A stretch of 64,000 nucleotides of DNA from Candidatus Rokuibacteriota bacterium (GTDB taxonomy: Bacteria; Methylomirabilota; Methylomirabilia; Rokubacteriales; CSP1-6): positions 1 through 64,000 of the forward strand of contig VGLJ01000019.1 of the NCBI GenBank assembly GCA_016866775.1, in the 5' to 3' direction. A model generated the notes under the pieces. It did no database searches and was not told the DNA's origin. It saw only the letters and a program-made list of their open reading frames with translations. Position 1 is the first letter of the stretch; each line of letters begins with the position of its first letter. This document shows, in pieces, positions 40,508-45,293 of the stretch. The position numbers and the translations under genes are program-made.

Positions 40508-41101
40508 CTAGCCGCGCCCGGCGGCGAGCGGCGGCGGCCCGGACGCGCCGCCCGCGGCGCCCGGCATGTCCAGCAGCGCGTTGACGAGATCGGCCAGGGC
40601 GCTGCGCGACGCTTGATCGGCGAGCGCGCCCTCGCGGAAGTGCGCGGACTCGAGATAGACGCTGGTCGGCACCACGCGCGCGCCGAACCACGCCAGCACC
40701 GCGCGAAGCTGCCAGTCCACGCCCAGGTAGTGATGGGCCGTGGCGCCCATGGCAACGATCCCCACCGGCTTGGCGCGCAGCGCCTCGATCGGCGTGAGGT
40801 CGAGCAGGTTCTTGAGCGCGCCCGTGAAGGTGCCGCGATACACGGGGCTCGCCAGCAGCACGCAATCGGCTGCCGCCACGCGCGCCACGACCGCGCCGGT
40901 GTCGTCGTCGAACTTCTCGGGCGGGCGGCCGTCGGCGAACGAGACGCGGTGATCGGCCAGGTTCAGCAGCGACGCCGACACGCCGGGCCGCGCCGCCGCG
41001 ATCTCGACGGCCGTGGCGATCGCCGCGTTCAGACGGCCCGGTGGCGTGACGGCGCCGACGACCGCGAGAAACGTGCACGGGCGCTCACCAGCGCCCCTCA
41101 C
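40508..41101 (-). CDS. NAD(P)H-dependent FMN reductase (SsuE-like)
   Basis: 197 residues from GTG 41101, overlapping the upstream monooxygenase stop (GTGA). The flavodoxin-like fold is shown by FLAVVGAVTPPGRLNAAIAT and the DCVLLASPVYRGTFTGALKN loop. Flavin reductases of this type supply FMNH2 to two-component monooxygenases, and the gene directly upstream encodes an SsuD-like monooxygenase, so they very likely work as a pair. Confidence 0.9.
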   Translation of the reverse strand: MRGAGERPCTFLAVVGAVTPPGRLNAAIATAVEIAAARPGVSASLLNLADHRVSFADGRPPEKFDDDTGAVVARVAAADCVLLASPVYRGTFTGALKNLLDLTPIEALRAKPVGIVAMGATAHHYLGVDWQLRAVLAWFGARVVPTSVYLESAHFREGALADQASRSALADLVNALLDMPGAAGGASGPPPLAAGRG

Positions 41102-42198
41102 GTGCTCACCATCGCGGCGCGGTCGCGGCGCGCGACTTCGCTGCGCACCAGCGGGATCAGCGCGCGGCCGTAGTCCCGCGCGTCGTTCAGCGGATCGAAG
41201 CCGCGGATCAGGAGGGTCGTGCAGCCGATGTCGTAGTAGGCGAGCAGCGACTCGGCGACCTGCTCCGGCGTGCCGACCAGCGCGGTGGTGTTGCCGGCGC
41301 CGCCCATCGCCGCGGCGATCGCCGTCCACAGGCGCGTGTCGTGCACCTCGGCCTCGCGCGCGAACTCCACGAGGCGCTGCGCGCCCACCGCCTGCGGACG
41401 GATGCCTGGGCCCTCGCCCACGATGTGGCGCCCCGTCTGCCGCACCCTGGCGAGGATGCCCCGCGCGCGCTCCCACGCCTCGGCCTCCGTCGGAGCAATG
41501 ATCGGGCGCAGCGACACGCTGATGCGCGGACGTCGTCTGAAGGCCACCGCTTTCCCGTGGATGTCGGCGATGCGCTGCTTCACCGCGGCGAGTGGCTCGC
41601 CCCACAGGGCGTAGACGTCGCAGTGCTTCGCCGCCACGTCCGCCGCCGCGCCGGACGCACCACCGAAGTAGAGCGGGATGCCGCCCGGCCGGAGCGGCTT
41701 GACGTCCGAGAACGCCTTGGCGAAGCGGTAGAACTCGCCCTCGTGATCGAACGGCTCGGAGGCCGTCCACATGCGGCGCAGCACGCCCAGATACTCGTCC
41801 GTGCGGCGATAACGCGTGTCGTGATCGAGCCAGTCGCCGTCGCGCGTCTGCTCGGCATCGCTGCCGCCCGTGATGATGTGCAGCGCGATGCGGCCGTTCG
41901 TGACGTGGTCCAGCGTGGCCGCCGCGCGTGCGGTCAGCGTGGGCGCCACGAAGCCGGGACGGTGAGCGATGAGATAGCCGAGTCTCTCGGTGTGAGCGGC
42001 CGCGTACCCCGTCACCGCGAATCCCTCGGCCGACGTCGACGTGTACCCGACGAGCACGCGGTCGAAGCCGGACGTCTCGTGAGCCTGGGCGAACGCGCGC
42101 AGCCACTCGGTGTCGACGGCGCCGCCGATCACGTGCACGGCCGCGCCGTCCGCTCCCTCCGGCTTCACGCCGATCATGCCGATGATCTCGACGGGCAC
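41098..42198 (-). CDS. SsuD-like FMNH2-dependent monooxygenase (LLM class, copy 3)
   Basis: 366 residues from GTG 42198 (VPVEIIGMIGVKP). SsuD-type hallmarks: GFDRVLVGYTSTSAEGFAV, AHRPGFVAPTLTARAAATLD, GRIALHIITGGSDAEQTRDG and IPLYFGGASGAA. These enzymes split C-S or C-C bonds with O2 and FMNH2, such as alkanesulfonate desulfonation. The coupled flavin reductase downstream supports a two-component system. No sulfonate transporter is adjacent. Confidence 0.92.
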   Translation of the reverse strand: MPVEIIGMIGVKPEGADGAAVHVIGGAVDTEWLRAFAQAHETSGFDRVLVGYTSTSAEGFAVTGYAAAHTERLGYLIAHRPGFVAPTLTARAAATLDHVTNGRIALHIITGGSDAEQTRDGDWLDHDTRYRRTDEYLGVLRRMWTASEPFDHEGEFYRFAKAFSDVKPLRPGGIPLYFGGASGAAADVAAKHCDVYALWGEPLAAVKQRIADIHGKAVAFRRRPRISVSLRPIIAPTEAEAWERARGILARVRQTGRHIVGEGPGIRPQAVGAQRLVEFAREAEVHDTRLWTAIAAAMGGAGNTTALVGTPEQVAESLLAYYDIGCTTLLIRGFDPLNDARDYGRALIPLVRSEVARRDRAAMVST

Positions 42199-42224: not shown

Positions 42225-42320
42225 ATGGAGATGATGGACTCGATGGCGAAGGAAAAGACCATGAAGATGCTGGCCGACATCGAGAAGATGCTGAAGGAGG
42301 TAGGGGAGCAGGCGCCCTAG
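42225..42320 (+). CDS. Possible 31-residue helical peptide
   Basis: ATG 42225 to TAG 42318 encodes MEMMDSMAKEKTMKMLADIE followed by KMLKEVGEQAP. The peptide is rich in Met and Lys and would form an amphipathic helix. No Shine-Dalgarno sequence is visible, so translation is doubtful. It starts 26 bases from the divergent monooxygenase start. Confidence 0.3.
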   Translation: MEMMDSMAKEKTMKMLADIEKMLKEVGEQAP

Positions 42321-42417
42321 CGACGCCGATCGGCACCGCCGGGCCTCCCTCGTCGAGCGGATTGACAGGCCCGCTGTCCGCGCTGTACGCGTGGACGCGG
42401 CAAGGGAGGATTCCGCG

Positions 42418-42807
42418 ATGGCGAGAGCGGTCACCGTGCGATCGGTAGCGGCGATGAAGGCGGAAGCCACGGTCGGCCCGCACCGGCTGGTCCTTGACGG
42501 GCCGCCCGAGGCGGGCGGCGGCGACGAGGGCCCGTCGCCCGCCGAGATGCTTCTCGGCGCGATCGGCGCCTGAAAGCTCTCGACCGTTCGGCGGTTCGCC
42601 GAACGTCAACCCTGGCCGATGGGGCGCATCGAGGCGCGCCTCGCCGTCACCGAGGGCCAGGGACGCATCACCGGCATCGACGTCGAGCTGGTGCTCCCGG
42701 GCCCGCTGGACGACACCCAGGTCGCGAAGCTCCGCGCGGCGGCCGAGACCTGCCGCATCAGCCGGGCGCTCGCCGTGCCGGTCACGCTGCGGCTGACGGT
42801 TTCTTAG
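42418..42807 (+). CDS. OsmC-family protein, probable selenoprotein (in-frame TGA at residue 52)
   Basis: 129 residues if TGA 42571-42573 is read through as selenocysteine. ATG 42418 follows AGGGAGGA with seven bases between. The sequence GPSPAEMLLGAIGA-U-KLSTVRRFAERQPWP aligns with the OsmC core, where most members have [28 protein letters not shown], so the TGA falls exactly at the peroxidatic Cys. After the TGA the frame continues as good OsmC sequence with the second Cys at 112 (AAETCRISRAL). OsmC proteins reduce organic hydroperoxides. A SECIS-like hairpin follows. A sequencing error or nonsense mutation is the alternative. Confidence 0.75.
42582..42607 (+). promoter_or_regulatory. Candidate bacterial SECIS element
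   Basis: CGTTCGGCG (42585-42593) pairs perfectly with CGCCGAACG (42597-42605) around a GTT loop. Two more pairs (42582-42583 with 42606-42607) extend the stem past one bulged C. The loop begins 20 bases after the TGA and its first base is G. Bacterial SECIS models call for an apical loop of at least three bases with an early G, located about 16-37 bases after the UGA, so all conditions are met. Confidence 0.65.
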
Positions 42808-44108
42808 TCCTCCTGCATCAGGTGATCGCGCTGGGTCGTGCCCGTGTACTCGCGGCGGAGGCGGCCGCGCCGCTGCAGCTCCGGCACCACCAGATCGACG
42901 AACTCCTCGACGGCGCCCGGCGAGTAGATCGGCGACAGCATGAACCCGTCGCCGCCCACCGCGTCGAAGTACGCCTCCATCTGGTCGGCCACCTGGGCCG
43001 GTGTGCCCACCATCTGCAGGAGGCCCACGCTCTGTCCGTGCCGCTGCGCCACCTCGCGCACGGTGAGCAGCTCGCCCGTCAGCGTGCGGTAGCGCGTCTG
43101 CATCCTCTGGAGCTGGGGCTCCGTGCGCTGCGCCATCAGCTCGTCGAGCGAGAGCTTCGCGAGGTCGAAGTCGAGGTGCCCGGAGAGGATCGCCAGGCCG
43201 CCCTCGAGCGGCACGAGCGCGTTGTGTTCCTCCTGCTTCTCGCGCGCGCGCGCCTCGCTCTCGCCGAGGATCGGCTGAATGCCGAAAAGGATCTTGCATG
43301 CATCATGCGGACGCCCCTCGTTGACGGTGCCGCTCTTGATGTCGTCGTAGTACGCCTTCGCGCCGGCGAGGTTCGGCTGGATGGCGAAGATCGCGTCGGC
43401 GTAGCGCGTGGCGAACGAGCGGCCCCTGGGCGAGGTGCCCGCCTGCAGGATCGCCGGTCCGTGCTGCGGCGAGCGGATGACGTTCAGCGGACCGCGCGAC
43501 TTGAAGAAGCGACCCTCGAACTCGATGCGGTGCACCTTGGCAGGGTCGGCGAAGACGCCGGCCGCGCGGTCCGTCACGACCGCGTCGGGCTCCCAGCTCT
43601 CCCAGAGCTTGCGGCAGACCTGGATGAACTCGTGCGCGCGCTCGTACCGCTCGTCCGACGGCCGAAGATCTTCGCCGTAGTTCGCGGACTGGTTGTGGTT
43701 CAGCGTCGTCACCACGTTCCAGGCCGCGCGGCCGCGCGTGAGGTGGTCCAGCGTCGCCCACAGGCGCGCGGCGTAGAAGGGGTGCGCGTGGCTGATGGAG
43801 AACGTGGCCCCGAGGCCGATCCGCGACGTCACCGCGGCCATGAAGCCGAGCAGCGGGATCGGGTCGTGCTCGGGCGCCTGCGTGGCGTGGCGGATCGCGG
43901 GCGCCATCGAGCCCGTGTACGTGTCGGAGATGTAGTTGAGGTCGGCGAAGAAGACCATGTCGAACTTGCCGCGCTCGCAGACCTGCGCGATGTGCTGGTA
44001 GAGCTCGGGCGTCGTCCATTCGTAGCCGGCGGCCGCCGTCCGCGGATGGCGCCACATCGCGAGGCTGTGGTACGTCGGCCCGTGGCACAGGAACTGTGCG
44101 AGGTGCAT
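42804..44108 (-). CDS. NtaA/SnaA/DszA-type FMNH2-dependent monooxygenase (LLM class, copy 4)
   Basis: About 434 residues from ATG 44108 (GTG 44120 is an alternative). The start MHLAQFLCHGPTYHSLAMWR and later WNVVTTLNHNQSANYGEDLR and GTSPRGRSFATRYADAIF are hallmarks of the nitrilotriacetate/DszA monooxygenase branch. The C-terminal FVDLVVPELQRRGRLRREYT is shared with the copy at 48870. It is the third gene of a minus-strand run and its stop overlaps the OsmC-family stop (TTAG). Confidence 0.9.
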   Translation of the reverse strand: MHLAQFLCHGPTYHSLAMWRHPRTAAAGYEWTTPELYQHIAQVCERGKFDMVFFADLNYISDTYTGSMAPAIRHATQAPEHDPIPLLGFMAAVTSRIGLGATFSISHAHPFYAARLWATLDHLTRGRAAWNVVTTLNHNQSANYGEDLRPSDERYERAHEFIQVCRKLWESWEPDAVVTDRAAGVFADPAKVHRIEFEGRFFKSRGPLNVIRSPQHGPAILQAGTSPRGRSFATRYADAIFAIQPNLAGAKAYYDDIKSGTVNEGRPHDACKILFGIQPILGESEARAREKQEEHNALVPLEGGLAILSGHLDFDLAKLSLDELMAQRTEPQLQRMQTRYRTLTGELLTVREVAQRHGQSVGLLQMVGTPAQVADQMEAYFDAVGGDGFMLSPIYSPGAVEEFVDLVVPELQRRGRLRREYTGTTQRDHLMQED

Positions 44109-44124
44109 CGCTCGCTTCACGATG

Positions 44125-45293
44125 TCAGACCTCGCCGGCGAAGTAGACGCGCGGGTCGGACGCGCGCACCCGCGCCTCGGGGAGACCCAGCTCCCGCCGG
44201 ACGATGTTCGTGCCTTCGACGAGCGCGACACATTTGTAGTAGGCGATCCGCCGGCTGAGGCCCTCGCGGCCGAAGCCGCAGTCGGTCGTGACGACCAGCC
44301 GCTCGGGCGGGATGTACTCGAGCGCTTTCCGGATCAGACGCGCGACGTGCTCGGGGGGCTCGACGACGGTGTTGCAGTGGCTGATCACGCCGATCCCGAT
44401 CTTCTTGTCGGTCTTGTGCTTCGCGAAGAGCGGCAGATCTCGCCCGTCGGTGCTCGCGCACTCGAAGGTGATCACGTCGGCGTCGAGGGCGAGCAGGTAC
44501 GGCAACGCGCGCTCGTAGCTGGGCGTCTCCCAGTACACGCGCTGCTGGTTCGGATTGCCCCAGCGCGTGTGGACCCAGATCTCGGCGTCCACGCCGACGA
44601 GCTGGCGGTTGAACGCCTCGGTCAGGAACTCGAGCTCGGCGTCGGTGCAGTCCGGCCGCGTGGTTCGCCCGTGATGCGGCGGCTCCTCGACCCGGATGAG
44701 CGGACAGCCGGCGGCGCTGAGCTCGCGAAGCTCGGCGTTCATGATGTCCGAGAGATCGTTGATGAGCGCGCGATCGTCCTTGTAGTACTCGTCCCACAGC
44801 ATGCTCGCGAGCGCCGGCGCGCAGATCGTGCCGAACTTCACGGGCTTGTCCGTGAGACGCTGGGCGACCTTCCACAGCGCGGCGTACTCGAGGGGCCGCG
44901 ACTGAGACGCCGCTTCACGACGGCCGGCTGATACGCCTCCTGCACTTCCCAGAGGATCTTGCCGGGACGCAGGCCATGACGCGACATCCAGCCGCGCGAG
45001 GTATCGCGATGGCCCTCGATCCCGCCGAGCCGCTCGATCGGATAGAAGAACCACGACTTGCCGCCGACGGCGAGATCGAACCGGCTGTCGCCGTCGGTCA
45101 CGATGTCGAGGCCCGCGGATTCCTGCGCGTTGATGACTGCGGCCACCGCGTCGAGGTACTGCTCGCGGAACAGCGAGTCGCCCAGCGCGGTCTTGAACGA
45201 CTGGCCGCGGAGGCTCACGTCGTACCAGAGCGGCCGGGGGTACGACCCCGTGATCGCGGTCGTCAGCTTCTGGTCGCGGGTGATGCGCAGCAT
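44125..45293 (-). pseudogene. MetE C-terminal-domain-like protein, one frameshift
   Basis: From ATG 45293 the product reads like a cobalamin-independent methionine synthase domain (TTAITGSYPRPLWYDVSLRG, DIVTDGDSRFD) up to YQPAVVKRRLSRGP. It then continues in another frame with LEYAALWKVAQRLTDKPVKF to the stop at 44125. One missing base in the run of Gs at 44892-44895 (Cs on the coding strand) explains the break. Zinc ligands are present: His and Cys in SHCNTVVE and Cys in TTDCGFG. Such a homopolymer slip may be a sequencing error. The intact protein would have about 390 residues. Confidence 0.8.

Follow-up and report, generated by a model that had tools for sequence, protein, structure and literature searches.

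A predicted OsmC-like selenoprotein subfamily, and an Ohr-like relative with predicted selenocysteine at the resolving site

The OsmC-like gene and its in-frame TGA

The window, a 64,000-nucleotide stretch of DNA from Candidatus Rokuibacteriota bacterium (positions 1 to 64,000 of contig VGLJ01000019.1), contains an OsmC-like gene whose forward-strand frame, 42418-42807, is interrupted by one internal stop, a TGA at codon 52 of 129. The gene stands alone between two luciferase-like monooxygenase genes on the minus strand. The features of the locus are:

41101-42198, minus strand: luciferase-like monooxygenase gene, flanking the OsmC gene
42404..42409, plus strand: GGGAGG, presumably the ribosome-binding site, 8 nt 5' of the ATG
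42418..42807, plus strand: predicted OsmC-like selenoprotein gene; ATG start, 129 aa, Sec52 and Cys112, stop TAG at 42805-42807
42571..42573, plus strand: TGA, the predicted Sec codon, at the position of the first catalytic (peroxidatic) Cys; TGA in 38/38 fetched TGA-bearing members
42582..42607, plus strand: predicted bacterial SECIS hairpin; conserved 7-bp stem of 42586-42592 with 42598-42604, invariant GU of the loop region at 42594-42595, 20 nt after the TGA
42751..42753, plus strand: TGC, which encodes Cys112, the second of the two conserved Cys positions (resolving), from sequence and alignment
42807-44135, minus strand: luciferase-like monooxygenase gene, flanking the OsmC gene

The GC content at third codon positions (GC3) is 0.88 5' of the TGA and 0.91 3' of it, so that both halves of the gene look coding and in one frame. 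Read through as a whole, the product scores 49.8 bits against Pfam OsmC (PF02566, cut-off 27.5) and belongs to the family, whereas the 5' piece, up to the TGA, has no Pfam match at E 0.001 and the 3' piece reaches 20.5 bits to Pfam OsmC, under the cut-off of 27.5. Since neither piece passes alone and the read-through does, the OsmC domain spans the TGA. In alignments with homologues, residue 52 falls in the invariant first Cys column and residue 112 in the second. An earlier sequence-only reading of this DNA had described an OsmC frame intact on both sides of a single TGA, with the TGA at the catalytic Cys and Cys112 retained, and each of these points is borne out. The terms peroxidatic, for residue 52, and resolving, for Cys112, are assigned here from fold and alignment.

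When the window protein was searched at E 1e-5 against the class, whose 95 genomes are also the 95 of the phylum considered below, 46 matches were obtained in 40 genomes, and 38 of these, from 35 genomes, contain a single TGA each. These 38 were all fetched (30 + 8), and in every one the TGA is the residue-52 codon in the aligned helix; the Cys112 motif is present in 36, the exceptions being a sequence that meets a contig end (L026) and one with a frame break (L168). The other eight matches are without a stop, seven of them being Cys OsmC proteins of other subfamilies (26-43% identity over the aligned stretch) and the last a fragment without the site (L169). None of the 95 genomes yielded a member of the window subfamily with Cys at residue 52. 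DNA identity to the window gene is only 74-77% for the three nearest relatives, which are thus separate sequences, and the TGA at the residue-52 codon persists down to ∼31% amino-acid identity. Position 52, at which the sequence-only reading had asked for homologues to be aligned, is TGA across the subfamily and Cys in the Cys relatives. In another phylum (198 genomes, the phylum of a Desulfobacterales record), all 12 matches are without a stop.

The gene neighbourhood is not shared, in that no orthologous neighbours were found at the OsmC genes of the three nearest relatives; distant (26-34%) monooxygenase matches occur near the OsmC gene in two of the three. A 31-codon ORF at 42225-42317 on the plus strand, in the gap that separates the OsmC gene from its monooxygenase neighbour, has no Pfam match at E 0.1, and nothing matching this ORF was found around the OsmC genes of the three nearest relatives.

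The predicted SECIS hairpin and the selenocysteine machinery

With a GUU loop and a spacing of 20 nt, the hairpin falls within the definition of a bacterial SECIS element (a G in the loop, 16-37 nt). Folded as 40 nt it has an energy of -16.3 kcal/mol and a z of -2.65, with z of -1.36 at 50 nt and -0.86 at 60 nt. The published SECIS model, as given in the available text of PMC13188914, is matched by 30/30 window-type genes and 29/30 genes of a second type described below (L019-type). The same model is also passed by 260 of 400 random positions of the window, where the DNA is GC-rich; a match proves little alone for this reason, and the bare model was set aside as proof.

Covariation was assessed on 24 sequences of one register out of 30 aligned, six with the register shifted by one base being set aside. 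In this set, 94.8% of 154 stem cells are paired, three of the seven stem pairs have changed on both sides, and the covariation score is 0.549 compared with 0.177 in shuffles (0/500 shuffles as high). Two further measures, one counting pairs that vary on both sides and the other further pair types, were not above shuffles, and 8 of the 22 distinct sequences leave the outer pair 16-34 unpaired. Compared with synonymous recodings, the native hairpin has the greater stability in 37/37 Sec genes, L168 being excluded (mean z -1.91; p ≤0.05 in 24); these counts are inflated by kinship among the genes. For 80 Cys homologues the mean z is -0.28, with 46 below zero and nine at p ≤0.05, and it is -0.19 for the 55 with a GC content of at least 62%. 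Similarly, 6.6 of 7 stem positions are paired in Sec genes and 4.2 of 7 in Cys homologues. This contrast is more than protein sequence alone explains. Conservation of the loop GU is partly imposed by Leu/Met-Tyr codons in most relatives, and freezing of stem codons gives no signal in the window type (share 0.56 inside and 0.53 outside the stem), so that here the evidence for the hairpin is covariation.

The window genome (G000) is a draft of 159 contigs with an estimated completeness of 97.5%. It encodes a tRNA-Sec (70 bits, gathering score 47; reported by ARAGORN as tRNA-SeC, anticodon tca), SelA (592 bits) and SelB (381 bits), with selA, selB and tRNA-Sec close together on contig 43. SelD (335 bits) is found on contig 31 (L015:1483-2535); its gene has one in-frame TGA, at SCAGU, and is itself a predicted selenoprotein gene. 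In the same region (L015), a second forward frame upstream of selD encodes a 71-aa Pup-like protein ending in GGE (Pfam PF05639, 79.4 bits); Pup is best known from another phylum than that of the window genome. All four components on which the proposal of a selenoprotein had been made to depend (selA, selB, selD and tRNA-Sec) are therefore present, and together with the conserved TGA and the covarying downstream hairpin they support that proposal. The presence of selA is uninformative as a discriminator. It is found in 33 of the 35 genomes carrying a window-type TGA gene (one of the two others is 95% complete), in 83/95 genomes of the phylum, and in 17 of 30 Cys-form genomes tested, out of 80 Cys loci; with 83/95 positive, it does not separate carriers from non-carriers.

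Two further OsmC genes and the known OsmC selenoproteins

A Pfam OsmC search of the window genome gave three matches over the cut-off, and each of the three has a single TGA, which falls on a catalytic Cys position. In addition to the window gene these are:

L018:1333-1839, G000 contig 7: OsmC gene whose TGA falls on the first Cys position
L019:1384-1803, equal to G000 contig 37:36743-37162: Ohr-like gene of the OsmC family, in which peroxidatic Cys55 is retained and the codon of the resolving Cys, 118, is TGA

The L018 protein is a member of the family NF041052, OsmC_like_Se (165 bits), and has the motif ULMT. OsmC-like UxxT selenoproteins have been known since 2005, from the Sargasso Sea survey (PMC1088965), and appear in the GOS survey (PMC2398784) and in a 2022 review (PMC9312934), in the text of each that was available. 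The window protein has in common with this type the OsmC domain, predicted Sec at the first catalytic Cys and a bacterial SECIS downstream. However, it scores 46.3 bits against NF041052, far under the cut-off of 95 and outside that family, and its motif is UKLST (Ser at +3, Thr at +4), with UTSMT, UTSIT, UTVLT and the like in its relatives. It also differs from the UxxT type in having its own Cys relatives in many phyla. The Sec/Cys exchange in OsmC-like proteins that the sequence-only reading mentions from sequence surveys concerns, in the published OsmC selenoprotein, a different subfamily from that of the window protein. The available text of a 2026 selenoprotein inventory lists OsmC once, as UxxT, with no entry for Sec at a resolving site (PMC13188914). 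The low NF041052 score and this listing argue that the window type is a second OsmC selenoprotein subfamily, with predicted Sec at the usual site.

Compared with the Cys proteins of the OsmC family (PF02566), the window protein has the same fold and the same two redox positions; they carry Cys in place of Sec and lack a selected hairpin after the codon. Such Cys homologues, 30-43% identical over the alignment, occur in Myxococcota, Acidobacteriota, Pseudomonadota, Planctomycetota and others. In a wider contig scan the search pattern closed with a Cys codon; only Cys forms could be returned, and its 80 Cys loci are uninformative on Sec forms elsewhere. A quick tree drawn from 37 Sec rows and 87 Cys rows (L168 and L169 left out), built on few columns and with 50 of 121 forks open, requires at least three changes of state; its starred branches force at least two, and it gives no direction. 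The tree does not separate gain from loss, and a single origin of Sec was not adopted.

In the window protein, as in Ohr, the peroxidatic and resolving residues lie in one subunit. The TGA is at the peroxidatic site in the window gene, whereas in L019 it is at the resolving site. The L019 protein scores 49.4 bits against Pfam OsmC and 24.8 bits against the Ohr model TIGR03561, the cut-off of which is 88.85. Its first Cys is residue 55, within SSCGV, and its TGA is at residue 118, within RGR-U-PLYRT; in an alignment to Ohr chains over both sites, residue 118 falls on the second Cys of Ohr. Its structural model (pLDDT 81.4) is weaker than that of the window protein, and its PDB matches are mostly of large rmsd. 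Among the 95 genomes, TGA is present in 41/41 L019-type matches from 39 genomes, and of the 40 that were fetched all have U before PL together with the first Cys; selA is found in 34 of the 39 genomes. One of these 40, on G064:C333 (L080/L187), diverges right after the Sec codon and runs into a TAA, as a decayed copy or an assembly break might. Outside the phylum, an L019-type match was found in one of 148 genomes (E 1e-12; L188); it retains the first Cys and has its TGA at the same resolving position.

For this type the stem codons are informative: those of Thr123 (ACG), Val124 (GTC), Ala127 (GCG) and Thr128 (ACC) are identical in 28/28 sequences, the partial rows L078 and L080 being left out, and among 39 conserved codons of 4- or 6-fold degeneracy elsewhere in the gene the top codon has a share of 0.64 on average and 0.89 at most. 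The hairpin is more stable than its recodings in 29/29 genes (mean z -1.43; seven at p ≤0.05). L019 is thereby predicted to represent a sister subfamily with a new arrangement, in which the peroxidatic Cys is kept and Sec occupies the resolving position. A literature search for Sec in Ohr or organic hydroperoxide resistance proteins listed no paper on this, and the candidates of a groundwater survey that the inventory mentions may include some of these genes. It is likely that a single phylum places selenium at either end of the OsmC/Ohr two-thiol site, as Sec-Cys in the window type and Cys-Sec in L019, with a third, UxxT type alongside.

Proposed redox cycle, alternatives and implications

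An AF2 model of the window protein, built with Cys at position 52 from a 59-sequence alignment, has a mean pLDDT of 93.9, and its top PDB fold matches are OsmC/Ohr structures. Residue 52 lies in the helix 41-62 and Cys112 directly before the helix 113-117, and the two redox residues of the Ohr/OsmC peroxidases are thus kept as predicted Sec52 and Cys112. In Ohr, as described in the available part of PMC5962072, hydroperoxide oxidises the peroxidatic Cys, a disulfide is then made by the resolving Cys, and its reduction falls to a lipoylated protein.

We propose, with a probability of about 0.95, that the window gene encodes an OsmC-fold selenoprotein in which UGA52 is decoded by means of the hairpin; the protein would probably follow an Ohr-like redox cycle. 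A ribosome reaching UGA at codon 52 would not terminate; the downstream hairpin would recruit SelB with Sec-tRNA(Sec), and Sec would be inserted, placing selenium at the nucleophilic, peroxidatic site on the long central helix. If Ohr is a guide, the selenolate would attack an organic hydroperoxide or a related electrophile to give a selenenic acid, Cys112 would resolve this to a selenenylsulfide, and a cellular dithiol would reduce the latter and close the cycle. Peroxide as substrate, the reductant and Sec insertion are thus our extrapolation from a TGA, a hairpin, a machinery and a fold that come from sequence and modelling. Two more OsmC proteins of the window genome would rely on this mechanism, selenium being placed at the resolving position in one of them.

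A single base change would suffice to turn a Cys codon into TGA, by mutation in a pseudogene or by a sequencing or assembly error, leaving a 51-aa fragment as the only product, and the window does come from a draft genome of many contigs. Errors would however scatter, and close relatives would show Cys forms; instead the codon is the same in 38 places, far beyond close kin, and the hairpin after it covaries. Misreading of TGC or TGT is in effect excluded by this recurrence in 35 genomes, and decay or error is a highly improbable explanation. No more credible is a genuine UGA that is read otherwise, as Cys or Trp by reassignment or by plain read-through. An open frame under another code is no proof of Sec, and near-cognate read-through is a general phenomenon, but UGA seems to act as a terminator elsewhere in this genome (the L018 gene ends in TGA), each gene has a single internal TGA, at a redox Cys, a tRNA-Sec with anticodon tca is accompanied by SelA, SelB and SelD, and the hairpin signal is absent from the Cys homologues.

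The chemistry allows more latitude than the decoding, and a selenoprotein that uses the OsmC fold and Sec for another redox task, for example the detoxification of other electrophiles, is a possibility we take seriously while considering it the less probable one. OsmC-like proteins of unassigned function are among the nearest matches by fold; by sequence, the PDB entry closest to the window protein is an OsmC fusion of 400 aa; and a counterpart of the catalytic Arg19 of Ohr was not identified in the window subfamily. At least one OsmC-like protein is reported to be without peroxidase activity (PMC4069020, in the text available), FTN_1133 being reported as inactive as a thiol peroxidase. Against this, the window protein retains the OsmC helix along with the two redox positions, and in Ohr it is these that serve to reduce hydroperoxide, according to the available part of PMC5962072. 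Overall, a gene that seems to be broken by a stop would, most probably, yield a functional redox enzyme carrying Sec at its catalytic site.

Gene callers split or drop such genes, and a conserved redox enzyme is likely to be missing from annotation as a result. The window type would widen the OsmC selenoproteins to a second subfamily, lying under the cut-off of the curated NCBIfam model, and the predicted Cys-Sec arrangement is shared by all L019-type members seen within the phylum, with one further case outside. If selenium does occur at either end of the site, these proteins would offer a natural comparison of where selenium pays within one fold, and Sec-Cys, Cys-Sec and Cys-Cys versions of the same small fold would make the gain from Sec at each catalytic step directly testable.
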